A stretch of DNA of 55,506 nucleotides, from contig JAFXTE010000002.1 in NCBI GenBank assembly GCA_017525245.1, positions 1-55,506 of the forward strand, given 5' to 3'. This document shows, piece by piece, positions 6,409 to 20,990 of the stretch; within the stretch, counting starts at the first letter, position 1, and every line of letters starts with the position of its first letter. A model generated the notes under the pieces. That model made no database searches. It had not been told where the DNA came from and saw nothing but the letters and a program-made list of their open reading frames with translations. The position numbers were made by a program, and so were the translations under genes. This DNA is from Bacteroidales bacterium (GTDB lineage: Bacteria > Bacteroidota > Bacteroidia > Bacteroidales > WCHB1-69).

Positions 6409-7248
6409 TTAGCATTTATACCTTTTATGTAGCATATCCCCAAAATGTAACCATGTCATAATGTTTTTCTCATCTTCCGGCGTGTAATGCCCAATATGCC
6501 ATTTACCACAATGAGCACACTTATATGCATTTACCTGTCTCTTATCTTCGGGATGTCTTAGTGCAAATTCGTTTGCAGCATCTGATGCCTCTTCATAGGA
6601 AGAATACTCATCTTTCTTCTTGAAAACCTTTTTTCCTGTTGCAGGATCATACATCTTTTTCCAATGCGTACTCTCAGTTCTGCAAAGACCCACAGCGCAT
6701 TCTATTTGACCAAGATTATGCAACTGGAATGATGTGGCCCTCTTCATGTAATGTCTATCGCGAGCCCCGTGATCATCATCTTCCTTGTGTTGCCGATAAT
6801 ATGCTTGACACATTCTTTTTTCAACTATTCGCCGAACCATCCGTGAAGTCGCTCCGTCTTCTATTGAAATATCAATTCCACGAAGGTTTTCGCCATCCTT
6901 GAAGCGCAACTTTTCATTATAAAGTTTTTTAGTGATGCTCAAAAATCGTTTGGACTGCCCAACGGAGTTATTCTTCTTTGACTCTTTTTTAGTTTTACCT
7001 GATTCGGTCCGATTTAAGATACGACAAGCATATTGAACTTTGTCAAGTAATGTGGAAGCATCATAAATTCCTGCCATTGAGTAATCGCGGCAATCACGAA
7101 TAGCATTTCTCGCCTCTTTATATTTGCCTGAAAAAATGAAAGTATTTAACGCGGCATAATCTTCGCTAATGTTCCATTGATCGATTTTGCCGAATCTAAC
7201 GAGAGAGTTTTCCCATCTTTTAAGCGTACTTTTGATTGTCTGTTCCAT
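6409..7248 (-). CDS. Protein of unknown function with C-terminal zinc knuckle
   Basis: A 279-residue soluble protein. The first ~100 residues are helical and lysine-rich. The C-terminal part has a CxxC...H..H pattern (YKCAHCGKWHIGHY, about residues 245-258), suggesting a small treble-clef or zinc-ribbon unit like those in bacterial nucleic-acid-interacting proteins. Immediately before it lies a helix (YEEASDAANEFALRHPEDK). It is divergently transcribed from the sigma-factor gene, with about 140 bp between the two starts. The family is not recognised. Confidence 0.5.
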   Translation of the reverse strand: MEQTIKSTLKRWENSLVRFGKIDQWNISEDYAALNTFIFSGKYKEARNAIRDCRDYSMAGIYDASTLLDKVQYACRILNRTESGKTKKESKKNNSVGQSKRFLSITKKLYNEKLRFKDGENLRGIDISIEDGATSRMVRRIVEKRMCQAYYRQHKEDDDHGARDRHYMKRATSFQLHNLGQIECAVGLCRTESTHWKKMYDPATGKKVFKKKDEYSSYEEASDAANEFALRHPEDKRQVNAYKCAHCGKWHIGHYTPEDEKNIMTWLHFGDMLHKRYKC

Positions 7249-7349: not shown

Positions 7350-7357
7350 TATTTTTG
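7350..7357 (+). promoter_or_regulatory. -7 promoter element of the sigma/protease operon
   Basis: TATTTTTG, a perfect TAnnTTTG match. It overlaps the TTG at 7355 that could be read as a start of the sigma-factor gene; that codon would then lie upstream of the expected transcript start, which argues for the GTG at 7388. No well-spaced TTG -33 box is evident, as expected if an alternative sigma factor reads this promoter. Confidence 0.5.
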
Positions 7358-7387
7358 CAGTCTAATAATAGACAAAACAAGAACAAG

Positions 7388-8080
7388 GTGAGAATACCTA
7401 ATATACTGTCAACCAACAATGAACTGCGCCTAATCGAAAGAATTTACGAAGGCGACAATCGGGCATTTTCAACACTATATGAAAACTATAGGCCTAAGTT
7501 TTTGGGCTGCTTTCAACAATTTTATCATGGAATAGAACATGGCGAACAAATTGTCGACTTATATCAAGACTCTTGTTTAAAACTATATAATCAAATCATT
7601 ACAAGAAAGATATTTGTTCAAGACAAAAATATCTATATTAAAAACAGGGAAGGCAAAATCAACATATTGTCTGCCAAACTCGACACCTATTTGATTGGCA
7701 TTGGCAAGTATTCGTATCTTGAAATGAAAAGAGGAGAGCATAAATATGTCGATTTTGATCCATTTGAAAATGTATTAAGCATCGAAGATTTTACTCCAAC
7801 TGACGACATTGAAGCCAACCCGCTTTTTGAGATTGCAGATGATCCGTATTTTGATGACGAAGTCAAGTTCAGAGTAGTGAGAGAAATTGTCAATGAAATG
7901 GGGTATCCTTGCAAAGACATTTTTACCTACACCTATTTTGGCGAAGACGGACAAAGGATGAAAGGTGAAGAAATTGCAGAAAAGATGGGCTATTCTAGTG
8001 CAGATGTGGTCAAAAACCAAAAATCTCGTTGTCATAAGAAATTCAAGGAGGCATACGAAGACGCATTATCCAAAAAATAA
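7388..8080 (+). CDS. Sigma-70/ECF-like RNA polymerase sigma factor
   Basis: The 230-residue product has region 2 features near the N-terminus (LRLIERIYEGDNRAFSTLYE, then IVDLYQDSCLKLYNQI, the -10-binding helix) and a C-terminal region 4 helix-turn-helix (GEEIAEKMGYSSADVVKNQK followed by SRCHKKFKEA). The linker is longer and more acidic than in a minimal ECF factor. I chose the GTG at 7388 because the alternative TTG at 7355 lies inside the -7 element; no in-frame ATG exists near the start. The next gene encodes a membrane anti-sigma-like protein 24 bp downstream, the common sigma/anti-sigma arrangement. It probably directs transcription of this operon and perhaps others. Confidence 0.8.
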   Translation: MRIPNILSTNNELRLIERIYEGDNRAFSTLYENYRPKFLGCFQQFYHGIEHGEQIVDLYQDSCLKLYNQIITRKIFVQDKNIYIKNREGKINILSAKLDTYLIGIGKYSYLEMKRGEHKYVDFDPFENVLSIEDFTPTDDIEANPLFEIADDPYFDDEVKFRVVREIVNEMGYPCKDIFTYTYFGEDGQRMKGEEIAEKMGYSSADVVKNQKSRCHKKFKEAYEDALSKK

Positions 8081-8104
8081 GAAAAAATAAGGAGGAATAT
8101 TATT

Positions 8105-8731
8105 ATGGAAGAATTTGAGAGCACATCGTTCAATAAAGAATTAGCCGAACAGGTTGACCGTTTCCTCCGAAAGGAAATGAGCGAAGAGGAATCTTTGGCA
8201 TTTGTGGAAGAAGTCAAGTCAAATCCAGCGTTGAGAGAATACTATCAACGCCATTTCAATTTAATGAGAGGAATCAACTTCGAGCAAATGGAGAAACTTA
8301 TGAAATCAAAAGAGAAAGAATTATCCAATGGTAGGAACAAAACCATTCTCTTTAAAACAATCTCCATCGCTGCAGCTGCAATGTTTTGTATTGTCTTAGC
8401 CTCCGATTTCTTTGTGTCAATGCATGTGGGTTCCGTTGTGTTACAACAAGAATTAGCTGTTGTACAAAAAGGAGACAGTGACATCGATAGCTTGTTGTTG
8501 GAGGGCAAATACGACATAGCACTTGAAGAAATAGATAAAGAATTAGGAATCAAATATGAATTAGGTGATGACCCTGAAGCAATCAAAGCTTACGAACAAT
8601 CCATGAATGATTTGAAATACAAGAAAGCCTTGATATACTTGAAACAAGGAAAGAAGATGAAAGCAAAAGCAATCTTGAAGGAATTGGACGATGAGAGAGC
8701 TAATCAAGTACTTAATCAATTACTTTGGTAG
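8105..8731 (+). CDS. Membrane-anchored anti-sigma-like protein with C-terminal TPR-like region
   Basis: The 208-residue protein has a helical N-terminal region (residues 1-75) containing LAEQVDRFLRKEMSEEESLA, the 'Y..G.l...e...f...l...p.l...' layout of anti-sigma/zinc-finger-like domains in Bacteroidetes but without the zinc-ligand His-Cys motif. One transmembrane helix follows at about 82-104, then helices with TPR-like spacing (YDIALEEIDKELG, then YKKALIYLKQGKKMKAKAIL) at 128-208. It follows the sigma-factor gene by 24 bp and is followed by the next gene after 2 bp. I infer that it holds the sigma factor at the membrane and could be a substrate of the proteases encoded downstream. Confidence 0.65.
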   Translation: MEEFESTSFNKELAEQVDRFLRKEMSEEESLAFVEEVKSNPALREYYQRHFNLMRGINFEQMEKLMKSKEKELSNGRNKTILFKTISIAAAAMFCIVLASDFFVSMHVGSVVLQQELAVVQKGDSDIDSLLLEGKYDIALEEIDKELGIKYELGDDPEAIKAYEQSMNDLKYKKALIYLKQGKKMKAKAILKELDDERANQVLNQLLW

Positions 8732-8733
8732 TC

Positions 8734-9660
8734 ATGTCTAAAGCGTTTCTTATAATATTAATAATCCTATTGGGTCTTTTTCTGTTACTATATCCATTTT
8801 TAGGAGCATTGATAAAAGACAAACGAGAGCTTGCTGATAAAACATTGGAGGAAATCTTCCCATTTTTTTTCAGCACTATTAGTTCTGGACTCTTTGAAGG
8901 CAAAGGTAAAATCACACCTCTGCCCCAAGACCCAAGATGCGTCAACATGATGTCAACCGACCCTAATTGTCAAAACATGATTGTGCATTTTCTATATGGT
9001 ACTGGAAATATGACAATAGAAGTTGGATATAAATATTTCCATGAAGAGCTGCGTTTTCAACATGTTGTCGCTGGGTTAAGGAATGCATCCGCGTTTACCC
9101 AGAAGAATGAGGCCAATGCATTTGTGGAGGTCGCACGCAAAAAGATTTACGAACACAAAATCAATGTCGTAAGACTATTGCATCCCGGCGAAGTGGTCGA
9201 CCATATTAAGGTAGAACATCCTTTTGACACAGACGACCCTATTGATATGGTTGAAAGCTCTTTCGACGGTCTTACAAAAGAGCAAAAAGAAGCATTGATT
9301 GCCATTGGTTATCTAATTGCTACTGCTGACAGTTCACCCGAGTCCATTTTTACTAGCAATCCCTCCGTCCTTCAACAAATTCGCTTCTTCAATGTATCTT
9401 GGGAGAATTGCAAAACAAAGCTTCAGTCTTTTGGTGAACAGTATTTGTACGACCTCCTATCAGGAATCGAGTTAGACACTCTCCCTGTTATTGAGCCTTT
9501 CCTCTTTTCCGTGACAATCGATCCTCTAACCGGTGAACAAAGCCCTCTGAAAACACAAAAGTTATACGAATGTTTGTCTGCAATTGGCATATCAAGAGAC
9601 GAGTACGATGGAATTGCCATGAAGAACAAACTGCTCATGCAAATGTTTTACGGAAAATGA
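8734..9660 (+). CDS. N-terminally membrane-anchored protein of unknown family
   Basis: A 308-residue product with one long N-terminal hydrophobic helix (about residues 2-27, FLIILIILLGLFLLLYPF) and a soluble domain. The domain contains mixed alpha/beta sequence with conserved-looking blocks (MIVHFLYGTGNMTIEVGYKY, EQKEALIAIGYLIATADSSP). I recognise no domain. The ATG at 8734 is preferred over the TTG at 8725, which overlaps the preceding stop. The gene overlaps the caspase-like gene by 4 bp (ATGA), so the products are probably made in coupled fashion. It may be an adaptor or effector of the protease pair. Confidence 0.6.
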   Translation: MSKAFLIILIILLGLFLLLYPFLGALIKDKRELADKTLEEIFPFFFSTISSGLFEGKGKITPLPQDPRCVNMMSTDPNCQNMIVHFLYGTGNMTIEVGYKYFHEELRFQHVVAGLRNASAFTQKNEANAFVEVARKKIYEHKINVVRLLHPGEVVDHIKVEHPFDTDDPIDMVESSFDGLTKEQKEALIAIGYLIATADSSPESIFTSNPSVLQQIRFFNVSWENCKTKLQSFGEQYLYDLLSGIELDTLPVIEPFLFSVTIDPLTGEQSPLKTQKLYECLSAIGISRDEYDGIAMKNKLLMQMFYGK

Positions 9661-10688
9661 CAAGAACACTATTCATAGTGCTATTCTGGATCGCTCTTGC
9701 AATTCCATTAGCGGCACAAAAAACGGCCGTCCTAATTGGAATATCCAAATACCCACCCCAAAGCGGTTGGCGAACCATCAACGCACACAATGACTTGGTA
9801 CTTATTAAAAACAAACTAGACAATACTTCATGGGACGTCAAAGTCTTGGAGAACGAAGCAGCCACACATCAAGGTATCATCAACCTACTTGACCACATTG
9901 CCAAAACAGCATCTCCTGGCGATACGATATTCATCCATTTTTCCTGTCATGGTCAGCAAATGGTTCCGCTAAAAAAAGACACTAATAGTGAACCAGACCT
10001 GTTGGACGAAGCGCTTGTCCCGTATGATGCCATAAAACAATGGTCGTCAAGCTACGATGGACACAATCATTTAAGGGATGATGAACTATCTGTCCATATC
10101 AATCGTATTCGTAACAAAGTAGGTGCATCCGGATTTGTTATTGTTGCCCTTGATGCTTGTCATAGTGACTCTATGGAAAGGGGTGACGAGGACAACAGTA
10201 AAAATAACTTGACCATATTGAGAGGGACTTCTGATATTTTTGGGGATCCAAACATTGTTGATCCTCTCATAAAGAATAGATATAAAAGGGATACCTCTAA
10301 AATCACTATCGACAACAACTCAAATGTAGTATATATTAGTGCATGCCAATCGCATTCTGAAAATTCTGAAATTGTTCTTAATGGCAAAGGTTATGGATCA
10401 CTATCGTATTCTATTGCCAATGCCATTAACAATTGTGGTCTTAAAAACACCACTGCTTTTCTAGACCATATTGCCTTTATGATGGATTCCTTGGTGGGTG
10501 AGCGTGGCCAAAGGCCCGGCATTCGAGCTTCATTCATTTACACATGTCCCAATTTTAATAATAACGAAGAAAACAAATCTACCCCCGATAAAACCACAAA
10601 TAACGAACTAGACCACCACACCATTTATATGCTAATTGCAGCATTCGCCATTCTTGCCATTCTAATTTGGAGAATAATAAAGAAATGA
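9657..10688 (+). CDS. Caspase-like (peptidase C14) protease with signal peptide and C-terminal TM helix
   Basis: The 343-residue protein starts with a signal peptide (MTRTLFIVLFWIALAIPLAAQ) and continues directly with the first strand of a caspase fold (KTAVLIGISKYP). The catalytic dyad is visible as His98 in FIHFSCHGQQM and Cys168 in IVALDACHSDSM. A final hydrophobic helix lies at about 320-338 before a basic tail, so the protease domain is probably exported and membrane-tethered. The frame is open upstream to 9570, but the ATG overlapping the previous stop (ATGA) and the clean signal peptide fix the start. Bacterial caspase-like proteases act in regulated proteolysis and cell-suicide systems. 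Confidence 0.85.
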   Translation: MTRTLFIVLFWIALAIPLAAQKTAVLIGISKYPPQSGWRTINAHNDLVLIKNKLDNTSWDVKVLENEAATHQGIINLLDHIAKTASPGDTIFIHFSCHGQQMVPLKKDTNSEPDLLDEALVPYDAIKQWSSSYDGHNHLRDDELSVHINRIRNKVGASGFVIVALDACHSDSMERGDEDNSKNNLTILRGTSDIFGDPNIVDPLIKNRYKRDTSKITIDNNSNVVYISACQSHSENSEIVLNGKGYGSLSYSIANAINNCGLKNTTAFLDHIAFMMDSLVGERGQRPGIRASFIYTCPNFNNNEENKSTPDKTTNNELDHHTIYMLIAAFAILAILIWRIIKK

Positions 10689-11746
10689 TTACCGCCGCCG
10701 CAAACCAACAAACACAAAAGCCAAACACAACATACGCTGTTATGCTGTGTATTTACTTTTGTTATCTATTTAGGCTGTCTATTGGTGCAGTCTCTCAATT
10801 CTTTAATTGGACTATTCCAGAGATAAAGCTTTCCGATTCTCCAGTTTTCAATTCGTTGTATTACTTGGATTATTTTCTTTGGTTTATATTTGGCTTTTGG
10901 TCCATTATCCTTGCATTAAAAGGTTCAAAGCATGCAATACCGTGTCTCAAACTCTGCTTACCTTTTCATTTTATTGCGCTTTTATTAACCAGCCTGACAA
11001 AGGTATCATTCATCAATCTTTCGGCAACATGGTTCACTTTGCTTATTGTGTTGTTTCCCTTGATATTCTTTATCTATCTCTGCAAATCTAAAGAGATAAA
11101 AGAGGATTATCCTAAAACTGATAGACGATTGGGCGTCCCTGGCTTTATAGGTATTGTCTTATATGTTATTCTTGCCCTACTTTTGATCCAGTTGATGGTT
11201 GCAGATATATCCAAAAGACGATTCAGCAAAAAAATAGACCCGACCAAAATCGAACTGTTCGCTGGTGAACTAACAGACGGGCGAGTTATTTTCAAGCCAA
11301 ATAAGACTTGGATTATGGACTCAACAGTTGAACTCAACTCCGTGCAAGATGCTTTTTATTTTCACGACACTGCATCATCATCTTCTATTTGCGTCGTCTG
11401 CGCCACCGAAGAGTACACACCGCCGTCTCGTCAATTCTACATCTATTCAATCTCGGAAAACCAACCCAATGAGATAAGAAAGTTTTATAAGAGTGACATT
11501 AGCTTCAAAGAAATTGATATCGATGAATACATCATCTATGTTGATCAGTATTATTACCAAGTTGATACAACATTTTATTATTGGACTTATGCATCAAAGC
11601 TCGGAAAAAAGCTTGATAAAGGAATACGATTATCTGTATTAGAAAAAGACAGTTTAAGAACAAGCATCAGCAATGCCGTAGAGTTCCTCGAAAGTACATC
11701 TCTAAATGTGAACGACAGACTACTCAAAAAAAACCGAATATACTAA
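10685..11746 (+). CDS. Multi-pass membrane protein with C-terminal soluble domain
   Basis: A 353-residue protein with about five transmembrane helices in the first ~180 residues and a ~160-residue beta-rich soluble C-terminus (for example SICVVCATEEYTPPSRQFYI and EIDIDEYIIYVDQYYYQVD). The start overlaps the caspase gene stop as ATGA, with a GGAG at 10669-10672; a TTG at 10667 is the alternative. No family is recognised. Because it is translationally coupled to the caspase-like gene, it may be a sensor, a channel or the membrane target of the system. Confidence 0.6.
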   Translation: MITAAANQQTQKPNTTYAVMLCIYFCYLFRLSIGAVSQFFNWTIPEIKLSDSPVFNSLYYLDYFLWFIFGFWSIILALKGSKHAIPCLKLCLPFHFIALLLTSLTKVSFINLSATWFTLLIVLFPLIFFIYLCKSKEIKEDYPKTDRRLGVPGFIGIVLYVILALLLIQLMVADISKRRFSKKIDPTKIELFAGELTDGRVIFKPNKTWIMDSTVELNSVQDAFYFHDTASSSSICVVCATEEYTPPSRQFYIYSISENQPNEIRKFYKSDISFKEIDIDEYIIYVDQYYYQVDTTFYYWTYASKLGKKLDKGIRLSVLEKDSLRTSISNAVEFLESTSLNVNDRLLKKNRIY

Positions 11747-11935
11747 GAAAAATACTGCAACAATTGCTATGAGATATGCCACCCATCCTAAGCTTCGAAA
11801 CCAAAATAAGCGTTCAAGCAAGGCCTCTTTGAGTTTCTTCTTATTAGTAAAGCAATCATAAAGGACAAGAAATATCAGAACCGCTATAACAAGCAGCAAA
11901 ACCTCCTTGATAAATGGCATCCAAGCATTTTTCAT
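11720..11935 (-). CDS. Small two-TM membrane protein, antisense within the protease cluster
   Basis: A 71-codon frame on the minus strand encodes two hydrophobic helices (VLLLVIAVLIFLVLY and WVAYLIAIVAVFFLVY) joined by a basic loop (TNKKKLKEALLERLF), a plausible hairpin membrane protein. A perfect TATTTTTG box (minus strand, 11940-11947) ends only 4 bp before the ATG, so the transcript would be leaderless or translation would begin at the second ATG (11920). It overlaps the 3' end of the preceding gene by 27 bp and fills the gap before the CHAT gene. Toxin-like or regulatory small membrane proteins have this size, but no function is shown. Confidence 0.45.
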   Translation of the reverse strand: MKNAWMPFIKEVLLLVIAVLIFLVLYDCFTNKKKLKEALLERLFWFRSLGWVAYLIAIVAVFFLVYSVFFE

Positions 11936-11955
11936 AGTGCAAAAATATAAAAAAT

Positions 11956-14574
11956 ATGGCAACAAACGATCAGGATAAGAAAAAAAAACAACTCAAAGCA
12001 TTGGAGAACATTCATAGTGCTATTGGCTGTTTCCTATATATGACATTTACTATAGTTGGTCTCGTAATATCAACTTGTATTATTCTACTTATTGCCAGAT
12101 GGTTATTCCCAAATAAGGTTGACCTTTTTAATTACCATCTATCATCTAGAACTATTGTTGAATTAAAGAATGCGCACAAATATAAAGCCGTCGTAGATTT
12201 TTACGAACAAAAGAAAGAGATTTTCACTACAGAAGGTGACATTTACATAAACATGACCGAGGTTTTTGATTGCTACAAAAGAATAGGAGAATTCGAAAAA
12301 GCTGAGGCCATACTAAGAGACATGGATTCCTTGAATTATTTGTCTGCCAAACAAAAGAAAAAGATAAAAGAAAAGCCTTGGTATAATGACTTTTTTCGTT
12401 TTAACATAGCAAAAGAATACTTTAACCTATATGAAGAGATGGGCGACATAGAAGGCCAAAGACGTTATTATGCCATCATGAAAGAGTATTTGACCGAAGA
12501 ATTGGCACATCAGATTGACAGTATTATACATAAATCTGGAGATTCCGACACGTTGTCAATAAACAATCTGATCCGCTTATATGACCTTAAGATGTTATAC
12601 AAGACATCTCCTCGTGATGCCTTAAAAGAATTGTACACATTCATAAATGAGATGAATGATTGTGCTTTATATAAGACTTCTTTTGTGTTGAAATGCATGA
12701 ACCTTTTCAACAGTTGGGTTATTGAACAGCATGGCGTTCTGCCTGCATACCAGTCGATATGGGAAGCCATAGAATTTGCCCTGAACACCGACTCGCAGAA
12801 TGATGACAAATCTGAATACGGAACTCTTTCTGATATATGTTACAGGGTCCACGACATACAGAACAGTAAATGGTTCTATTCAAAATACACATCCTATCTA
12901 AAACAGAACTCTTCGAAAGAGGATCCTTTATATATTGAGAATCAGATTAGAGGTTTCAAATTCTTGGAAGATGAACAGAATTGGAAGGAACTGGAATCTC
13001 AAGTAATTGAATGTTGCACAGGCCTGAGAGATTTACTGTCAAAGAACATTTATACAATGAGTGAGTCCCAAAGAGAACATTTTGTTAATCTTCTTAATGG
13101 TCCTTTCGATTATGCCAACAATCTTTTGTATAACCATCATTCACAAAAGTTGGCCGATTTATGTTTCGAAAATTCCGTTTTTATGAAAGGGCTGCTGCTA
13201 CGATCCAATCAAGAATTGGCTAAGAAGATAAAGAATAGTGGTAACATTTCTTTATTGAGAAAATACAATCACTTGCAAGAAATGAGAAAAGAATTGTCCT
13301 ATCGAGAAAGTCTTAGTGAAATTGGCAACGCCATTAAGATAAGAGTCCTCCGAAAAGACATTGAGAATCTAGACAAAGAGCTTGCTATTTCATGTCCCGA
13401 ATATCTCTATGACCGTAAGATTGCCGAAGCAAGCATTCGTTCAATAAAAAAGGACTTGATTCCAGATAAGGCTTTTGTTGACTTTATTCAAACCGAATGC
13501 GGTAATCTTCTCGCTCTCATTGTTACAAAAGACGGAAAGGTCACATCAGTCAATCTTGGCACTGAAAAAGATGTGTTGAATGTGTTTCCTTCTAACGATC
13601 CAAAGTTGTTATACACCGATGTGTCTTTGACAAGATTGGTTTGGTCGCCAATTGAGAAACACCTTTCTGGCATCAAAAATGTTTATTATACTACAAATGG
13701 CTTATTCAACTCCATATCCTTCCAAGCACTCAGTTTAGGTTCAAATGATCATCTTATTGACCACTACAATTTTCATCTTCTTTCAAATGCTAGCAATCTT
13801 CTCTCAATGCAAAACAACACGCCATCACATCAACTTAAAAAGCTAGCAATTTGGGGTGACATAGACTATGGAAACAAAGAGAACCCAAAGAAACCTAAGG
13901 CTGTCGAATATTCAACTTATCGTAATATCTTAAGAGGAGACCATCTTAAAAAACTAGTATTTTCAAAAGATGAAATTGATTCAATAAAAAATATAGCAGG
14001 AAGCAGTGCAATTGTTTCATTTTCAAGAACTTGGTCTGCGGCAACCGAAAGCTCTTTCCGTATTAGGTCAGGTCAAAAAGACAATGTCTTACATATTTCA
14101 ACCCATGGATTCTTTGAGGAAGATGATACACATAGAAAAGACTATAACCCTATGTATAACTCAGGGCTTTTCTTTGCAGGTGCCGATTCTACATGGAATA
14201 AAATTGACACTGTCTTCAATACAGAATCGATGATAGACGATGGTATCTTAAGAGCATCTGAAATACAATATTTGGATTTCTCTGATTGTTCACTCGCCGT
14301 TCTTTCGGCTTGCAAAACAGGTCTTGGGCATAGTTCTAATACAGAAGGTGTTTATGGTCTGCAAAGAGCGTTTAAACTTGCAGGTGTTAACAAGATACTC
14401 ATGAGCCTTTGGAATGTCGATGACTATTACACTGCCAAATTTATGCAAAGGTTTTACCTCCACTACTTAACGGAAGGTCTTTCGGAAGAAGAAGCTCTTC
14501 GTGAAGCTCAGAATGATATTCGGAAGGAAAATCCTTCTCCGAAGTATTGGGGAGCCTTTGTTCTTCTGGATTAG
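11956..14574 (+). CDS. Membrane-anchored TPR-CHAT protease
   Basis: The 872-residue protein has an N-terminal transmembrane helix (about 22-50), a long helical region with TPR-like repeats (about 55-430), a helical linker and a C-terminal CHAT (caspase HetF associated with TPRs) domain from about 500 to the end. The catalytic pair is visible: His717 in VLHISTHGFFEED and Cys786 in AVLSACKTGLG. The end of the domain shows the typical GLQRAFKLAGVNKILMSLWN and EEALREAQNDI blocks. CHAT domains are clan CD proteases; in type III-E CRISPR a TPR-CHAT protein cleaves an anti-sigma-like partner. Here no CRISPR is visible, but the same operon region carries a sigma factor and a membrane anti-sigma-like protein. 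Confidence 0.88.
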   Translation: MATNDQDKKKKQLKALENIHSAIGCFLYMTFTIVGLVISTCIILLIARWLFPNKVDLFNYHLSSRTIVELKNAHKYKAVVDFYEQKKEIFTTEGDIYINMTEVFDCYKRIGEFEKAEAILRDMDSLNYLSAKQKKKIKEKPWYNDFFRFNIAKEYFNLYEEMGDIEGQRRYYAIMKEYLTEELAHQIDSIIHKSGDSDTLSINNLIRLYDLKMLYKTSPRDALKELYTFINEMNDCALYKTSFVLKCMNLFNSWVIEQHGVLPAYQSIWEAIEFALNTDSQNDDKSEYGTLSDICYRVHDIQNSKWFYSKYTSYLKQNSSKEDPLYIENQIRGFKFLEDEQNWKELESQVIECCTGLRDLLSKNIYTMSESQREHFVNLLNGPFDYANNLLYNHHSQKLADLCFENSVFMKGLLLRSNQELAKKIKNSGNISLLRKYNHLQEMRKELSYRESLSEIGNAIKIRVLRKDIENLDKELAISCPEYLYDRKIAEASIRSIKKDLIPDKAFVDFIQTECGNLLALIVTKDGKVTSVNLGTEKDVLNVFPSNDPKLLYTDVSLTRLVWSPIEKHLSGIKNVYYTTNGLFNSISFQALSLGSNDHLIDHYNFHLLSNASNLLSMQNNTPSHQLKKLAIWGDIDYGNKENPKKPKAVEYSTYRNILRGDHLKKLVFSKDEIDSIKNIAGSSAIVSFSRTWSAATESSFRIRSGQKDNVLHISTHGFFEEDDTHRKDYNPMYNSGLFFAGADSTWNKIDTVFNTESMIDDGILRASEIQYLDFSDCSLAVLSACKTGLGHSSNTEGVYGLQRAFKLAGVNKILMSLWNVDDYYTAKFMQRFYLHYLTEGLSEEEALREAQNDIRKENPSPKYWGAFVLLD

Positions 14575-14771
14575 TTTATAAGTTCTTCGTAATCATACAA
14601 GCCACTAAGCAAGTGTTGATGGGTGTTGTTTTTGAATTTTGGATAATATAATTTAGAAGAAAAAGTTTTTCTATAATCACGACCATAATAATTGTACTTA
14701 TAGCCATCCTTGGGTTTTCATATATAAAGTTTAAACGCAACTATCGGCTTTCTCTCCAATTTGTAAAATAT

Positions 14772-15119
14772 ATGGAGCAAAAGTGGATGTATGACAATGA
14801 CATTGCCACTCTACTATCACTATGTAGTGCATACACAAATGCTCAGTTATATAAAACCGCATTGAACCTATATGGCGATATTATTCAAACGCCAGAACTT
14901 CATAGTCAACTCTCCGAAGAACAAATTGAATATGTGTATATGAATAAGCGTTTTTGCGAGTCACCTCTTTATGGGTCTTCAGGTGCAAAAGATCATTTTG
15001 TTTTTAGATACATCCATTATTTTTTCTTAAAAAGATTTGGGAAAAGGCGTTTTTCATTCATTAGAGAAGAAGATTTGCTGGAATTCAATTCTTTTCTTCG
15101 CTATAAGAATGGCATTTAG
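14772..15119 (+). CDS. Small TPR-like protein, membrane-anchored if a non-standard upstream start is used
   Basis: The 115-residue frame contains a helical pair (TLLSLCSAYTNAQLYKTALN) resembling a single TPR. In the same frame, sequence from 14673 to 14771 encodes a clear hydrophobic helix (IITTIIIVLIAILGFSYI) followed by KFKRN, the expected topology of a membrane anchor, but no ATG, GTG or TTG lies between the in-frame TAA at 14649 and the ATG at 14772. Either initiation uses ATA/ATT, or the 5' end has been lost. It sits 198 bp after the CHAT gene and is followed by a terminator. Its layout mirrors the N-terminus of the CHAT protein. Confidence 0.45.
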   Translation: MEQKWMYDNDIATLLSLCSAYTNAQLYKTALNLYGDIIQTPELHSQLSEEQIEYVYMNKRFCESPLYGSSGAKDHFVFRYIHYFFLKRFGKRRFSFIREEDLLEFNSFLRYKNGI

Positions 15120-15179
15120 GACAGATTTGTAACTATTTGAAATAAAATATCTTACATCCGTATCAAATAAGTCTTTAGC

Positions 15180-15231
15180 AATCAAGCATAGGTTCGACAA
15201 AAAAAAGCTCTTATGCTTGATTACTTTTTTT
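15180..15231 (+). terminator. Rho-independent terminator ending the protease cluster
   Basis: AATCAAGCATA (15180-15190) pairs perfectly with TATGCTTGATT (15212-15222), followed by ACTTTTTTT. A second hairpin (TTTATCTC with GAGATAAA, about 15229-15255) follows directly. Confidence 0.65.
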
Positions 15232-15304: not shown

Positions 15305-15871
15305 ATGAATGTATTAACCCAAAAATCAAAACGTAATCAATTCGTATTTGTATTCGACCTTGATAACACTCTGGTCAAAACGAATCAAGCGAACAATAAT
15401 GCATATAAAGAAGCTGTCAGAACGATCACCGGCAAGGATATTTCAATGAACATGGGTAGATTTACTCGTTCAGAACTTCGAGCATATCTTCCTGATTTGC
15501 CAATGGTCGATTATGATGCAATTATCACGTTGAAAGAAGAATTGTATGTCAAACAGTTACACAAAACAAAACTAAACAAACAACTGTGTAAGATCCTTAC
15601 TTTAACAAGAGCTGGTGGAAATGAAACAATTCTATTAACAGAATGCAGTAAAACAAGGGCAAAACAAGTTTGCGACTATCATTCTTTAACTCCATTTTTC
15701 AGTGTCATGTTTTTTAAGGAAGATTATGAAGATGACAACAAATATGGTTTTCTAAAAAAGATTTTGCATCCATTAAGTTCAGTAGTTCTATTTGAAAACG
15801 AAGATTCGGAAATCAAAAGGGCTATTCGACATGGTTTACATCAGAGCCAAATTATCACAATAAAATTCTAA
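15305..15871 (+). CDS. HAD-like hydrolase
   Basis: A 188-residue soluble protein with HAD motif I at residues 17-23 (FDLDNTL, nucleophile Asp18 and acid/base Asp20), a motif II-like strand (ETILLTECSK) and a motif IV-like acidic strand (VVLFENEDSEI). The small cap lies between motifs I and II. HAD enzymes are mostly phosphatases of small molecules. It is followed 4 bp later by a phosphoribosyltransferase-like gene and then a DprA-like gene, so it probably acts with them, perhaps on a nucleotide-derived compound. No promoter matching TAnnTTTG is seen directly upstream. Confidence 0.75.
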   Translation: MNVLTQKSKRNQFVFVFDLDNTLVKTNQANNNAYKEAVRTITGKDISMNMGRFTRSELRAYLPDLPMVDYDAIITLKEELYVKQLHKTKLNKQLCKILTLTRAGGNETILLTECSKTRAKQVCDYHSLTPFFSVMFFKEDYEDDNKYGFLKKILHPLSSVVLFENEDSEIKRAIRHGLHQSQIITIKF

Positions 15872-15875
15872 AAAA

Positions 15876-16538
15876 ATGGAAAAATTTATCATTCAAGCCA
15901 ATGACAGTTGGTTAAGGGCACGTAACGGTAAGATTAGTCGTTGCTTACAGTATGACACAACAGCTTTTTGTCATTCCAATTATCAAGGTGGTGGAAACTG
16001 GAAAATTGACGGCACTATTGAGAACCTGGTGTGTACGTTCAAAAACGACAGGACACCATATCCGCAACAAAAATTAAACATTGTTGTAAGTAAATTATTG
16101 GATATTCTGCGTTGGGATTTGCCTGCCATTTTACGAGAAACCGGGCTTCAATCGATGAGGGTTTGTGTCGTACCAAGAGCGAAACATGAGACACATTATA
16201 CAGACAACCAAAAGCTGTTCCGCCAAACTATCCAATCCTCAGTATGTCGGCTATCTGGTTTTGAAGATGGCACTCACGACATCATCAGGCATACAGATAC
16301 ACGAACAACGCATTCGAATAGAAGTGGAAATGGAGGAAAAGGAGAAATGCCATACTGTGGTATCACAAGAGAAACATGCAACATTTCCAATCAAGTTAAT
16401 GGAAAACATATTCTCTTAATAGATGACCTATATACAAGAACCGTAGGTATAGATGAAGATGCAATACAAGCATTATATGACAATGGCGCTAGTAGCGTAA
16501 TATTCTATTCGATAGGAAAAACCATATTGCGGTATTAA
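15876..16538 (+). CDS. Phosphoribosyltransferase-like protein
   Basis: A 220-residue protein whose C-terminal part contains a PRPP-loop-like motif, HILLIDDLYTRTVGIDED (about residues 178-195), followed by ALYDNGASSVIFYSIGKT, as in type I phosphoribosyltransferases of the ComF/amidophosphoribosyl group. The usual TTGxT is replaced by TRTVG, so activity may be altered. The N-terminal region (RNGKISRCLQY, FKNDRTPYPQQKLN) and a middle stretch rich in His, Asn and Gly are not typical of housekeeping PRTases. The position between a HAD phosphatase and a DprA/SLOG-like protein suggests a shared small-molecule or DNA-related role. Confidence 0.65.
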   Translation: MEKFIIQANDSWLRARNGKISRCLQYDTTAFCHSNYQGGGNWKIDGTIENLVCTFKNDRTPYPQQKLNIVVSKLLDILRWDLPAILRETGLQSMRVCVVPRAKHETHYTDNQKLFRQTIQSSVCRLSGFEDGTHDIIRHTDTRTTHSNRSGNGGKGEMPYCGITRETCNISNQVNGKHILLIDDLYTRTVGIDEDAIQALYDNGASSVIFYSIGKTILRY

Positions 16539-16557
16539 TTCAATAGTAGAAATAATG

Positions 16558-16565
16558 TATCTTTG
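16558..16565 (+). promoter_or_regulatory. -7 promoter element of the DprA-like gene
   Basis: TATCTTTG, 18 bp before the ATG at 16584, so the DprA-like gene can be transcribed separately from the HAD and PRTase genes. A TTG at 16527-16529 is too far away for the usual 19-21 bp spacing. Confidence 0.55.
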
Positions 16566-16583
16566 CATGTAAAAATATGAATT

Positions 16584-17513
16584 ATGAAATATACAGAAAA
16601 CGCTTTGAATATTTTGACAACACGTACCTTTCCCAGAAGAGGTCCTGCGTGGATAAATAGCAACTTGAAAGGTAATGACGATGTCGATACGCTATATGAT
16701 CTTTTGGAAACAACTGAATATGAGTTTCAAAAAAAACGCGATAGGATAGAATCAATAATTAATAATCTTGATGATTTTATCGATGGTGTTGTCGTCATTG
16801 GCGATACTGCTTTCCCAAAGACAAGAGGTGATATAAAGCCCGCAGATAAACCATTTGCCTTGTTTTATAAGGGCGACATTAATCTATTAAGCATCAACAA
16901 GACTAATATTGCAGTCATCGGAGTGTTGAATCCTGACGAAAAAGTGGCTTTAAGCGAGAGAATGGTCACTAGCGAAATCTTGAAATATGGGGCAACAATA
17001 GTTAGTGGATTAGCGCTCGGATGCGATACTATTGCGCATAATACAGCTTTGGAGAACAATGGTAAAACGATCGCCATTTTACCTTGTTCGCTTAATTCCA
17101 TTCTACCCAAAGAAAATACAGCTTTGGCCAATAGGATAGTAGAACAAGGGGGGCTTCTGGTAAGCGAATATTTCGAAGAACCACATAGTAGAAACGAAAT
17201 GATTAGCCGTTTCATCGTAAGGGACAGATTACAAGCATTATTTTCGGATGCCGTACTGCTAGCTGCAAGTTACGCTCCTAATAATCAGGGAAATGATTGT
17301 GGTTCTCGTCATGCTATGGGTAAGGCGAAAGAGTATGGGATAAAAAGAGCTGTCATATACAATGAATTGAAACACAAGGATAATTCCATGTATGATCTAA
17401 ATCGACAAATTCTTCGGGAAGACAGGTCCGTTATTCGTATTGATTCAACGAATATGGCTGAAAGTGTAAAACGATTGCTTGCAAAGGAGTCCACCGGAAG
17501 GTTATCGTTTTAA
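16584..17513 (+). CDS. DprA/Smf-like (SLOG superfamily) protein
   Basis: The 309-residue product has the DprA Rossmann core from about residue 70: ATIVSGLALGCDTIAHNTAL (phosphate-binding loop), KTIAILPCSLN, a QGGLLVSEY strand and a region FIVRDRLQALFSDAVLLAAS that replaces the usual RNR motif with RDR. No winged-helix DNA-binding C-terminus (DML1-like) is visible and the N-terminal SAM-like part is short. Canonical DprA loads RecA on incoming DNA, but stand-alone SLOG proteins can bind or make nucleotide signals. With HAD and PRTase genes just upstream, I favour a role in a conflict or signalling cassette over natural transformation. Confidence 0.75.
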   Translation: MKYTENALNILTTRTFPRRGPAWINSNLKGNDDVDTLYDLLETTEYEFQKKRDRIESIINNLDDFIDGVVVIGDTAFPKTRGDIKPADKPFALFYKGDINLLSINKTNIAVIGVLNPDEKVALSERMVTSEILKYGATIVSGLALGCDTIAHNTALENNGKTIAILPCSLNSILPKENTALANRIVEQGGLLVSEYFEEPHSRNEMISRFIVRDRLQALFSDAVLLAASYAPNNQGNDCGSRHAMGKAKEYGIKRAVIYNELKHKDNSMYDLNRQILREDRSVIRIDSTNMAESVKRLLAKESTGRLSF

Positions 17514-18261
17514 TTGCCTTAACAATCTTAAAGACTTGATGACGGAACTATCTCATATCTCGTACAGGAGTCCCTTGACTACATCGAAAAATAATCAAAA
17601 CAAGCCAAACGGCAGCTACATCTGCTAACGAACGCCATAGCGGGTATGTCATTCCGTTTGGCCTCCCTCCCCTACCGGAAACAACACGCATTTCCGAGAG
17701 CCACAACACCAACGTTAAAGCGATGCTTTGACCGGCCAAACGGAACCTCCTACTCGCAAGAGCAGGAAGAAACGGTGCGCGATCAACCCGCAAGTGCAGA
17801 GCAAATCGGAAAAGGGACGCCACATGTCAGCGCACGCCCTTGCGTGTACGGGATTCCGTTTTGCCATCCTGTCCTGACGAGCCACCACGTGCCTTGACGA
17901 TGACGACCACCCTCGCGGTCCAACGCCACCCTCTTCCGGCAAAACGGAATGGTGCATTGGTTTCCCGCCAGCGCTGTGATTACCGAAACACGTATAATCC
18001 GCTAGCGCAGTGATTGCCGAAAAACAGGCAACCCGCAAAGACACACGAAAACGAACAGCAAATGCACCATTCCGTTTTGCCTCCCTCCCCAACCGGAAAC
18101 TGATCAATGTACAATGAACAATGTGCAATGTACAAAACGGGGGACCGGACTTTATCAAGTTAACCGACACCAATCCCGTTTCCCCCAGCATTCTTAATTG
18201 AAAAAATTACTTGTTTTTAACGGAAGATGGCTTCGGAGCTTCAATACATGTAATCAGGCCT
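17514..18261. repeat. Composite repeat region, first block
   Basis: After a possible short C-terminal gene remnant (about 17531-17592, reading DDGTISYLVQESLDYIEK before a stop), this region carries a type I element (17651-17746, 96 bp) bounded by ATTCCGTTTGGCC and GGCCAAACGGAAC, and a type II element (17853-17950, 98 bp) bounded by ATTCCGTTTTGCC and GGCAAAACGGAAT. A partial left end lies near 18064, and an AATGTACAAT-type short repeat at about 18106-18135. Related copies recur at 19715-20739 and 22780-22838. Open frames here on both strands are low-complexity shadows of the repeat. Confidence 0.75.
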
Positions 18262-18434
18262 CGGCCAAACGGAACCTCAGACTCGCAAGAGCCAAAATCA
18301 GCGAAATCCCGGCCTTAATTCTTAACAATCAACAAAACAAATTGTAAATAAAAGTTACAACTATTTGGTTTTCAGAAGCAACAAAAATCACGTAAAACCC
18401 TTGACAAACAACGGTTTTTGTTGTATCTTTGCAG
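18262..18434 (+). repeat. Shared promoter block, copy 1
   Basis: The block begins in a right half of a type I element (GGCCAAACGGAACC), continues through AAAATCAGCGAAAT and an AT-rich stretch, and ends in a promoter. It is almost identical to 20819-20990 in front of the deaminase fusion gene, although the two genes it drives are unrelated. Confidence 0.75.
18401..18431 (+). promoter_or_regulatory. Promoter of the DUF1016 nuclease gene
   Basis: TTG at 18401-18403 and TATCTTTG at 18424-18431 are separated by 20 bp, the ideal Bacteroidetes -33/-7 spacing. The spacer (ACAAACAACGGTTTTTGTTG) is a rough inverted repeat that could be an operator. Confidence 0.8.
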
Positions 18435-18472
18435 GCGGAAATCAATAACCTTAAAAACGAAAAAGAACAAAC

Positions 18473-19573
18473 ATGAATCAGTACAGCGATGCCGTCAGGC
18501 AAATCAAGACAGCCATTTTGCAGAGCCAGGCCAAGGCCTTGGCGAGTGTGAACCAAGAACAGTTGGCCTTGTATTATGGAATAGGTCGATACATTTCTCA
18601 GAATTCCCGTTCGGGATTTTGGGGAAAAGATGCCATTGAGACCATTAGCCGTCAATTGTCGGCCGAAATGCCAGGATTGAGGGGATTCTCCGCACGCAAC
18701 TTACGGAATATGAGAATATTTTATGAGCAGTGGAAACTTCTGGACTCTAATTTGGCAGTTGCAACTGCCAAATTAGAACCATCAGATAATGAAGGCGATA
18801 CAATTCGGCAATTGCAATTGACGAATTACGAAAACTTCCCTGTCACAGCTTTCTTTGGCATTGGTTTCACCCATCACACCGTTATACTCGCAGGTGTAAA
18901 ATCGTTTCAAGAACGATTATTCTATATCCAGTTGTGCCATGATCTAAGACTCACTGTAGATGGTCTCCAACAAAGAATCGCTGAGGACGCTTACCATAAC
19001 CAAGGCAAAATGCCTAACAATTTCGTCAACACAATCCCAAACCACAAACAAGCCTTCCGTGCCATTCAGATGTTCAAAGATTCCTACTTACTGGATTTTA
19101 TCAATACAGAGCAATTGGGTCAGAGAGAAGAGGACATTGATGAGCGAGTTCTTGAAAACGAGATCGTCCATAACATGAGAAACTTTATCATGACTTTCGG
19201 CAAAGGCTTCGCATACATCGGATGTCAAGTTCATTACGAAAAGTTGGGGCACGACCATTGGGTGGATCTGCTATTCTTCAACAGGATTCTGCGTTCACTG
19301 GTTGTGGTGGAACTGAAAAAAGGGACTTTCAAGCCTGCTTATCTAGGACAACTATCTCATTACCTTCATGTTTTGGATGACGACGAAAAGCTTAAGGGAG
19401 AAAACCCTCCTGTTGGCATTATCCTTTGCAAAGATGCCGACAAAACATTTGTTGAGTATGTTCTTCAGGATTACCAGCGTCCTATGGGTGTCGCCACATA
19501 CCAAGCAGGACAGAAGAAACTGATGGAACTGCTCCCCGATGAAGATGAAATGAAAAAATTAATGTCTATATAA
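18473..19573 (+). CDS. DUF1016/YhcG-type PD-(D/E)XK nuclease
   Basis: The 366-residue protein has the N-terminal DUF1016 domain (LALYYGIGRYISQN, SARNLRNMRIFYEQW) and a C-terminal YhcG nuclease domain with the PD-(D/E)XK core: Asp265 in HWVDLLFFN and Glu280-x-Lys282 in VVVELKKG, followed by GQLSHYLHVLDD. The middle part (about residues 95-125) differs from the compact E. coli YhcG. Members occur beside restriction-modification genes and in defence islands; the enzymatic role is presumed DNA cleavage. It has its own strong promoter and is enclosed by repeat blocks, so it looks like an exchangeable cargo gene. Confidence 0.85.
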   Translation: MNQYSDAVRQIKTAILQSQAKALASVNQEQLALYYGIGRYISQNSRSGFWGKDAIETISRQLSAEMPGLRGFSARNLRNMRIFYEQWKLLDSNLAVATAKLEPSDNEGDTIRQLQLTNYENFPVTAFFGIGFTHHTVILAGVKSFQERLFYIQLCHDLRLTVDGLQQRIAEDAYHNQGKMPNNFVNTIPNHKQAFRAIQMFKDSYLLDFINTEQLGQREEDIDERVLENEIVHNMRNFIMTFGKGFAYIGCQVHYEKLGHDHWVDLLFFNRILRSLVVVELKKGTFKPAYLGQLSHYLHVLDDDEKLKGENPPVGIILCKDADKTFVEYVLQDYQRPMGVATYQAGQKKLMELLPDEDEMKKLMSI

Positions 19574-19576
19574 GGA

Positions 19577-19665
19577 TGAAATCCTCTACCAACCCGACAG
19601 CAGCATCCGGTTGGTGCAACGGGTCAAGCAAGACGGTAGAGCAGATTGGCTTCTTCGTGCGTACC
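19577..19665 (+). pseudogene. N-terminal fragment of a RhuM-like gene
   Basis: Directly after the nuclease gene, the frame reading DEILYQPDSSIRL matches the characteristic opening of RhuM-family ('virulence RhuM') proteins, which normally continue with EVR.edETVWLTQ. Here it continues as VQRVKQDGRADWLLRA, which keeps only the W-L pattern, and then runs into repeat DNA. I interpret it as a decayed or truncated start. RhuM genes are commonly found near restriction and defence genes. Confidence 0.4.
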
Positions 19666-20818
19666 GCACCCGCACAACCCGCAAAGACACATGGAAGCGA
19701 TCAGCAAATGCACCATTCCGTTTGGCCACCCTCCCCTACCGGAAACAACCTGCATTTCCGACACCCACAACACTAACCTTAAAGCGAAGCCTTGTCCGGC
19801 CAAACGGAAACTCGGGCTCGCAAGAGCAGGAAGTAACGGCACTCGACCAACCGCGAGACGCAGTTGGCTCCTAACACGACCTCGCCCCGCCAAACGGAAC
19901 CTCTGACTCGCAAGAGCAGGAAGTAACGGAACACCATAAACCCGCAAGAGCAGAGCATAACGAAAAAGGGACACATCCCGCCAGCGCACGCCCTGGCGGG
20001 TACGGGATTCCGTTTTGCCATCCTGTCCTGACGAGCCACCGCGCGCCTTGACGATGACAATTGCCCTCGCGACCCAACGCCATCCTCTTCCGGCAAAACG
20101 GAATGGTACATGGGTTGCCCGCCAGAGCAGTGAGCATCGCAACCCGCACGACCCGCAAGGGCAACGACAACCGATCAACCATGCAACCCGCAAGTGCCGT
20201 CACAAGCGAACAACTACGCAACCATAAGCGCAAGCGGAAACGAACAGCAAATGCACCATTCCGTTTGGCCACCCCTCCCTTACCGGAAACAACCCGCATT
20301 TCCGAAACCCACCGCACTAATGTTAAAGTACGGCTTTGTCCGGCCAAACGGAAACTCGGGCTCGCAAGAGCAGAGCATAACGAAAAAAGGACACATCCCG
20401 CCAGCGCACGCCCTGGCGGGTACGGGATTCCGTTTTGCCATCCTGTCCTGACGAGCCACCGCGTGCCTTGACGATGACAATTGCCCTCGCGATCCAACGC
20501 CACCCTCTTCCGGCAAAACGGAACGGTGCATGGGTTGCCCGCCAGAGCAGTGAGCATCGCAACCCGCACAACCCGCAAGTGCCGTCACAACCGAACAACT
20601 ACGCACCCGCCAGCGCAAACAGAAACGAACAGCAAATGCGCCATTCCGTTTGGCCATCCCCTCCCCTACCGAAACACCCCGCATTTCCGACACCCACATC
20701 ACTAACGTTAAAGCGACGCCTTGACCGGCCAAACGGAACCTCTGACTCGCAAGGGCAGGAAGTAACGGCACTCGATCAACCGCGAGACGCAGTTGGCTCC
20801 TAACACGACCTCGCCCCG
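19666..20818. repeat. Composite repeat array, second block
   Basis: Contains type I elements at 19715-19810, 20258-20354 and 20643-20739, and type II elements at 20007-20104 and 20427-20524, each with 12-13 bp inverted ends. The two type II copies are exactly 420 bp apart, and about 210 bp around them (19949-20160 versus 20370-20580) are nearly identical. A further duplicated segment (GCGAGACGCAGTTGGCTCCT) lies near 19855 and near 20785. A strong hairpin CCCGCCAG...CTGGCGGG precedes each of these two type II elements (about 19977-20000 and 20397-20420). No gene is supported here. Confidence 0.8.
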
Positions 20819-20990
20819 CCAAACGGAAACTGTGACTCGCAAGGGCCCAAAATCAGCGAAAATCAGGTTTTAAAACTTAACAATCAATAAATCAAATTGT
20901 AAATAAAAATTATAACTCTCTGGCTTTCAAAAGCTACAAAAATCACGTAAAACCCTTGACAAACAACGGTTTTTGTTGTATCTTTGCAGG
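20819..20990 (+). repeat. Shared promoter block, copy 2
   Basis: Nearly the same sequence as 18262-18434, from the half element CCAAACGGAA through AAAATCAGCGAAAA to the promoter. The match ends a few bases after the -7 box, so only the control region is shared. Confidence 0.75.
20956..20986 (+). promoter_or_regulatory. Promoter of the deaminase fusion gene
   Basis: TTG at 20956-20958 and TATCTTTG at 20979-20986 with a 20-bp spacer identical to the promoter at 18401-18431. Confidence 0.8.

Follow-up and report, generated by a model that had tools for sequence, protein, structure and literature searches.

The stretch of DNA analysed here, which we call the window, comprises positions 1 to 55,506 (55,506 nucleotides) of contig JAFXTE010000002.1 from a Bacteroidales bacterium (assembly GCA_017525245.1). 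Toward its start lies a cluster that brings together genes for a sigma factor of the extracytoplasmic function (ECF) type, a membrane anti-sigma-like protein and two different proteases of clan CD, one from the caspase-like C14 family and one with a CHAT domain, along with two further genes that we refer to as P3 and P5 (Table 1). A first-pass annotation made from the sequence alone had listed these six genes, and all of them proved to be open reading frames (ORFs) where it had put them. It overlooked a small minus-strand gene between P5 and CHAT for a protein with two predicted transmembrane (TM) segments, which is conserved, judging by its homologues in related loci. ORFs were called, TM segments assigned (by a hydrophobicity rule) and iterated profiles built with simple home-made tools. 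The assembly has an estimated completeness of 94% and contamination of 6.46%, so the host of the contig is not fully certain, and the contig may not belong with the rest of the binned genome.

Table 1. Features of the sigma factor–protease cluster, in window coordinates
Feature	Position	Strand	Basis and remarks
TAnnTTTG box	7350–7357	+	At the sigma gene; the alternative TTG start at 7355 overlaps the box
ECF-type sigma factor	7388 (GTG start, preferred) or 7355 (TTG) to 8080	+	TIGR02985, TIGR02937; aligned homologues
Membrane anti-sigma-like protein	8105–8731	+	NF047528 and TPR_6 matches below cut-off; charge bias
P3	8734–9660	+	N-terminal TM segment and unknown domain(s), predicted cytoplasmic; homologues in related loci
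Caspase-family C14 peptidase	9657–10688	+	PF00656; H98/C168; signal-peptide-like start; C-terminal TM segment
P5	10685–11746	+	About five TM helices and a C-terminal domain; unknown family; candidate sensor or scaffold; found in 7 loci
Small two-TM protein, 71 aa	11720–11935	−	Profile matches in related loci
TAnnTTTG box	11940–11947	−	Upstream of the small two-TM gene
Membrane-anchored CHAT protease	11956–14574	+	N-terminal TM segment, helical region, CHAT domain 558–870; H717/C786
Possible eighth gene, P0008	14772–15119	+	Small TM and helical companion; start codon not apparent; relative in L006

From the sigma gene through P5 the genes are tightly packed: 24 bp separate sigma from anti-sigma and 2 bp separate anti-sigma from P3, and C14 (start at 9657) and P5 (start at 10685) both begin in an ATGA shared with the stop codon of the gene before. 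The close spacing that the first-pass annotation had described for most of the cluster holds as far as P5 but not for CHAT, which we place outside the tight operon because the 209-bp gap before it holds the conserved minus-strand gene.

We compared the window (W) with three related contigs, L006 (CAMYXV010000003.1), L007 (JAFPUN010000015.1) and L008 (JADIMZ010000100.1), and with loci from genomes G211 (L009), G703 (L087), G747 (L088), G751 (L089), G778 (L090) and G030 (L093). All six genes are present in L006, whose CHAT is 74% identical to the window's, and in L009, where P3, C14, P5 and CHAT are only 25–37% identical; L007 has the set without P3 (CHAT 64% identical), and L008 has only C14, P5 and CHAT (CHAT 51% identical). 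The sigma and anti-sigma genes are inverted yet adjacent in L087 and L088, and P3 is shortened in the latter. In all, five related loci retain five or six of the six genes and one retains three. L089, L090 and L093 show a second arrangement, with C14, sigma, anti-sigma and CHAT (4.5 kb away in L090) but without P3 and P5. These four genes lie within about 6 kb of one another in eight loci (W, L006, L007, L009, L088, L089, L090 and L093), of which L093 alone comes from a sample picked without regard to resemblance to the window; the anti-sigma-like gene is found in these eight and in L087. The first-pass annotation had staked its proposal on such genes keeping company in other genomes, and they do. 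The cluster is not a product of chance, since other contigs and genomes carry the same set of genes: it is real, conserved and wider than that annotation could see. Within the window's family its distribution appears patchy, with CHAT profile matches in 9 of 104 genomes.

Both proteases are clear members of their families. C14 matches PF00656 with an E-value of 2.2e-16 (60.7 bits against a Pfam cut-off of 21.4) and CHAT matches PF12770 with an E-value of 2.6e-48 (165.4 bits against 24). The catalytic pairs picked out in the first-pass annotation, His98/Cys168 in C14 and His717/Cys786 in CHAT, are correct, each being invariant in five of five aligned homologues. The CHAT pair is intact in 91 of 91 aligned CHATs, and intact pairs in these 91 and in 11 C14-type proteins fit active proteases. 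In a profile search of the PDB the closest solved relatives of C14 were metacaspases, and the window CHAT profile matches other Bacteroidota CHATs over profile positions 355–871. Of the earlier label "TPR-CHAT" the second half is borne out; as to the first, Pfam finds no TPRs in the window protein and a weak TPR_19 match (best E 0.0011) in one of five homologues. There is a second C14-family match in the window's own genome (G000:C4:15447-16097, E 3.3e-10). Such genome searches can miss genes, as this one did not list the window's C14.

The window sigma factor matches TIGR02985 (E 3.8e-7, 30.5 bits) and TIGR02937 (E 1.3e-6, 28.2 bits), both under the curated NCBIfam cut-offs. Its homologues in L087 and L088 exceed the Pfam Sigma70_r2 cut-off and those in L089, L090 and L009 do not. 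Sigma70_r2 is matched (E up to 0.001) by 23 of the 29 sigma factors in the wide sample described below, and a profile of the sigma factors in that sample matches RpoE, SigW and other solved ECF sigmas. A TAnnTTTG box, which we take to be the Bacteroidota −7-like element, precedes the sigma gene at an aligned place in W, L006 and L007.

The anti-sigma-like protein matches the NF047528 anti-sigma model over residues 18–118 (E 4.8e-5) and TPR_6 (E 1.9e-4), both again under curated cut-offs. It is predicted to consist of a cytoplasmic N-terminal helical domain, one TM segment at about residues 81–99 and a periplasmic, TPR-like C-terminal part. Five Lys or Arg residues (K/R) precede the TM segment and none follow it; K/R are more numerous before than after the TM segment in nine of nine homologues, and alignment shows a common N-terminal motif. 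We aligned 25 anti-sigma-type proteins, five from W and L087–L090 and 20 of 28 from the wide sample (leaving out the ORFs of L018, L026, L039, L071, L076, L077, L086 and L094); at E up to 0.01, 14 of the 25 match the NCBIfam anti-sigma model NF052375 and 20 match TPR_6. A profile of the N-terminal domain alone matched no solved anti-sigma. The architecture and charge bias of the window protein fit a membrane anti-sigma factor with its N-terminus in the cytoplasm (N-in); its C-terminal part is probably periplasmic.

The proteases, too, appear to be envelope proteins. By the hydrophobicity rule, seven of nine C14 proteins have an N-terminal hydrophobic segment, and the two exceptions (L008 and L090) read like signal peptides by eye; six of nine (W, L006, L007, L008, L009 and L088) end in a hydrophobic segment and a basic tail, and the L089 protein reads, to us, like a lipoprotein. 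Of the CHATs sampled below, 67 of 71 have a hydrophobic start (35/38 in a first set and 32/33 in a later one). The starts of the L089, L090 and L093 CHATs are signal-peptide-like, and the C-terminal TM segment of sigma-linked CHATs is usually followed by a basic tail. When K/R were counted by hand in the CHATs of the window group, those in the whole N-terminus exceeded those in the 15 residues after the TM segment in six of seven, L009 being the exception; counted within 15 residues on either side, the balance is contrary to N-in in W, L006, L007 and L009, even in L008 and in favour of N-in in L087 and L088. Although the charge evidence is thus mixed, we think it likely from these features that the window CHAT is periplasmic and membrane-tethered, and C14 and CHAT both probably lie outside the inner membrane.

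Nor is a CHAT gene beside a sigma gene confined to close relatives of the window. CHAT matches occur in 148 of 296 Bacteroidota genomes and, within the window's order, in 213 of 393. From the high-scoring matches listed we picked a non-random sample of 72 CHAT loci, one per genome, and kept 71, no CHAT ORF having been called in L034; the rows L028, with 1 kb only, and L106, a filler without a CHAT target, were dropped as well. In 29 of these 71, CHAT has a sigma gene no more than 3 kb away, and in 25 the sigma gene either overlaps an anti-sigma-type gene or is separated from it by at most 56 bp; shared ancestry and the non-random sampling inflate both counts. The expectation for a nearby sigma gene is about 3.7% for each locus, based on 457 sigma matches in roughly 81 Mb from 20 genomes of the window's order, with rounded genome sizes, for a sample that includes other Bacteroidota. 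In the first set, on which the sigma profile was trained, 11 of 38 loci have a nearby sigma gene, and in the later set, which was not used for training, 18 of 33 do. Stretches within 3 kb of CHAT held sigma genes at densities of 48 and 101 per Mb in the two sets, against 4 and 17 elsewhere in the same loci. We prefer the figure of 25 to looser counts of sigma plus TM-bearing anti-sigma (10/38 and 17/33) because the latter take in L077, L086 and L094, where the nearest anti-sigma match is 4–5 kb from sigma. L085 has a sigma gene and no anti-sigma row, and the L046 anti-sigma has no TM segment by the hydrophobicity rule.

In a FastTree phylogeny of 91 CHATs, a sigma gene lies within 5.5 kb of 26 of the 35 members of one clade and of 12 of the 28 in the window's clade, some of these 12 having been fetched for likeness to the window. 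On this tree sigma requires at least 15 changes, the C-terminal TM segment 3 and C14 7. On this evidence sigma genes accompany CHAT on separate branches of the tree, though common descent accounts for much of the count. In L027 and L072, tandem CHATs branch as matching pairs, which suggests an old duplication kept together.

Starting from what the sequence itself gives (the gene set, its conservation, the intact catalytic pairs, the charge bias of the anti-sigma and the hydrophobic ends of C14), we infer an outward-facing CHAT, sigma binding, cleavage, an order of proteases, a signal and a regulon. The whole would make an envelope-signalling module in which a membrane anti-sigma factor is cleaved by clan CD cysteine proteases, following a logic like that of DegS and RseA; we put this reading forward tentatively, as having somewhat less than an even chance of being right. 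The anti-sigma-like protein would hold sigma at the inner membrane, with its TPR-like part in the periplasm, where CHAT, anchored by its N-terminal helix, and C14, anchored at its C-terminus, would act. A signal sensed by the helical region of CHAT, by P5 or by P3 would lead one of the two proteases to cut the periplasmic part of the anti-sigma (a site-1 step), after which general intramembrane proteolysis would free sigma; P5 and the small two-helix protein might serve as sensors or scaffold. The first-pass annotation had likewise proposed that the proteases cut the anti-sigma-like protein and so free sigma. That logic remains plausible, but its placement should probably move to the periplasm. 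The conserved cluster suggests that in these Bacteroidota a transcription programme may be switched on by caspase-like cleavage. It is conceivable, though less likely than not, that this extends to a widespread and undescribed signalling class in Bacteroidota, with periplasmic tethered CHATs, sometimes joined by C14 in a two-step cascade, as site-1 proteases acting on TPR-bearing membrane anti-sigmas.

Several observations weigh against such a module. K/R counts within 15 residues of the CHAT TM segment (before/after) are contrary to N-in in W (1/2), L006 (0/3), L007 (1/3) and L009 (1/2). No sigma match was found in the 21.9 kb of L008, and the L087 locus showed no C14. Of the 28 sigma-linked sample loci with an anti-sigma match, 18 have CHAT convergent with sigma, 7 have it divergent and 3 have both genes in one direction; with CHAT mostly convergent, co-transcription with sigma is therefore not the rule. 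C14 profile matches lie within 3 kb of CHAT in 3 of the 71 loci, and only L093 among these also has sigma and anti-sigma, so that C14 is a rarer, optional part of the association. Finally, a C-terminal TM segment is found in 24 of 29 sigma-linked CHATs against 10 of 42 others (Fisher p 1e-6, treating loci as independent), but we reject this correlation as independent evidence, the CHATs concerned falling mainly in the one 35-member clade; an independent-pairs test with 2–3 informative pairs was not significant.

The other two C14 matches near sampled CHATs are in L074 and L024. In L074 the match is a 1012-aa protein (E 4e-11), and in L024 (5732–14269, genome G072) CHAT has a 274-aa C14 protease on one side and a 1209-aa C14-matching protein on the other. 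Starts in L024 are not hydrophobic by eye or, for CHAT, by the hydrophobicity rule, and this is possibly a different, cytoplasmic clan CD cluster.

The direction of the CHAT gene and the case of L008 could also be explained if the proteases were outputs: the sigma/anti-sigma pair would sense envelope stress in the ordinary way and switch on neighbouring protease genes whose products have other targets. ECF sigmas often regulate their own loci (PMC10028731), a CHAT gene convergent with sigma needs its own promoter, and L008 retains the proteases with no sigma gene nearby. However, an input role would account at least equally well for proteases encoded next to a membrane anti-sigma, and the TAnnTTTG boxes found at the sigma gene and at the small gene resemble what we take to be the housekeeping type rather than a dedicated promoter. 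We regard the output explanation as a minority prospect, but a substantial one.

An anti-phage or cell-death module, in which caspase-type proteases would kill or arrest the infected cell and the sigma pair would only control expression, seems unlikely to us despite the surroundings. The window flanks hold AbiEi/AbiEii, ShosT/ShosA-like and PDC-S02 genes, and the 56 flanking proteins of eight related loci match PDC-M45, PDC-M19A, PDC-S01, PDC-S02 and WYL among the 25 listed of 89 matching families, although these flank matches stand without a background rate. The cluster is also low in G+C (0.35–0.41 at 7.5–15 kb against 0.43–0.60 at 21–55.5 kb, in 1.5-kb windows), and C14 matches the PADLOC "caspase" model. 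That match is generic, however, and the only other cluster matches at E up to 1 are weak ones of P0008 (E 0.006 and 0.06), with no system-specific PADLOC model for a known anti-phage system among them. Moreover, a signal-peptide-like start is atypical for an intracellular death effector, and scans of viral contigs with CHAT and P3 queries found no relative, leading us to reject viral carriage. A chance neighbourhood, or hitch-hiking on mobile islands with no functional link, could draw on the low G+C, the patchy family distribution and the estimated contamination, but is very improbable and already disfavoured by gene sets retained down to 25% protein identity, by the ATGA overlaps in the window and by sigma–CHAT adjacency in separate parts of the CHAT tree.

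Among known systems, the closest functional parallel to the proposed envelope module is the Craspase of type III-E CRISPR, to which the first-pass annotation had pointed. There a TPR-CHAT protease is encoded with a sigma factor and a sigma inhibitor, and the protease cuts the inhibitor (PMC10028731). Here, too, one gene set holds a CHAT protease, a sigma factor and a putative sigma inhibitor. The likeness to Csx29 and Csx30 is a functional one only, and we reject actual membership in type III-E. We found no RAMP effector (PF03787) in the window's genome, although a miss is possible in an assembly 94% complete and with a search mode that missed the window's own C14. Positions 1–22000 of the window hold no array-like repeat family, the longest family having 10 irregularly spaced copies at 17.7–20.9 kb, and the four PDB sequences matched by the CHAT profile at E up to 10 include no Csx29 chain. 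Csx29 acts in a cytoplasmic CRISPR complex, whereas here the proteases are probably periplasmic, there is a second clan CD protease, and the anti-sigma is predicted to span the membrane. Given the signal-peptide-like start and TM segment of C14, together with the probably periplasmic CHAT and anti-sigma C-terminus, we therefore picture an envelope pathway rather than a copy of Csx29.

DegS is a PDZ serine protease, in contrast to the caspase-family cysteine proteases of the cluster. The resemblance to the DegS/RseA/RpoE and RsiW-type pathways is one of topology and of proposed logic, the cutting of a membrane anti-sigma that releases sigma (PMC10028731). In group ECF54, ECF sigma genes are reported to have CHAT, subtilase and carboxypeptidase neighbours and no anti-sigma, and proteolytic control has been proposed (PMC8999054); the window cluster and its relatives differ in having a membrane anti-sigma-like gene and do not have an ECF54-type context. 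EACC2-caspase systems join a caspase, an ECF sigma and a DUF1822 TPR protein in one neighbourhood (PMC8195603). The caspase and ECF sigma are shared, but in Pfam searches at E up to 1 no cluster protein matched DUF1822, so the composition differs in that respect (EACC2 itself was not compared). With metacaspases and orthocaspases C14 shares its family, but it differs in its signal-peptide-like start, C-terminal membrane helix and operon context. In the literature, as seen in part, we found no description of a Bacteroidota sigma–anti-sigma–CHAT association; the main ECF classification (PMC7826278) lay outside this search and may mention one.

Were the envelope module to prove correct, many Bacteroidota CHAT proteases would gain a natural function apart from cell death and CRISPR, and the origin of the type III-E protease–anti-sigma–sigma logic would become testable. 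If the wider signalling class exists as well, caspase-type proteolysis would be an envelope-to-transcription switch in bacteria, and the Csx29/Csx30/CASP-sigma set of CRISPR might be a cytoplasmic derivative of such modules.

P3 has homologues in L006, L009 and L087, and its N-terminal half occurs alone in L088, L010 and L011; it has no Pfam match over cut-off and no PDB match by profile search, and probably lies on the cytoplasmic side. We do not claim the TerB-like fold that we had guessed for it by eye, the AlphaFold model (mean pLDDT 42.6, pTM 0.29) being too poor. P5 likewise has no Pfam match and no PDB match by profile search. Within the window's order, 5 of 393 genomes have a match to it, strong in two (G000 and G211) and at E 3–4e-4 in three that look like noise.

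The minus-strand two-TM gene has profile matches at the same place and in the same orientation in W, L006, L007, L009 and L087. L088 has a small multi-TM ORF there, also in the same orientation, that the profile does not match, and between P5 and CHAT of L008 no counterpart was found. Between the window and L006, its nonsynonymous and synonymous divergences (dN and dS) are 0.09 and 1.02. The possible eighth gene, P0008, is 54% identical to a stretch at L006:13533-13847 and by eye resembles L009:11367-11837(-); its TM-coding stretch runs on upstream, by eye, with no ATG, GTG or TTG start.

A gene at 6409–7248 on the minus strand, divergent to sigma, encodes a protein of 279 aa that weakly matches a zinc ribbon (E 0.14); L006 and L007 have a similar-looking gene in the corresponding position. 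The cluster is flanked by an AbiEi/AbiEii pair (512–2251) on one side and a gene for a PDC-S02 (DUF1016) nuclease (18473–19573) on the other, which give it a defence-island-like setting. A ShosT/ShosA-like toxin–antitoxin pair (15305–17513; PADLOC E 1.9e-7 and 3.8e-49) follows a short way downstream, with a HAD-like gene before it. The irregular repeat mentioned above is a 26-nt unit whose ten copies, at 17752–20860, surround the PDC-S02 gene, nine of them being 69–92% identical to the tenth, the reference copy.

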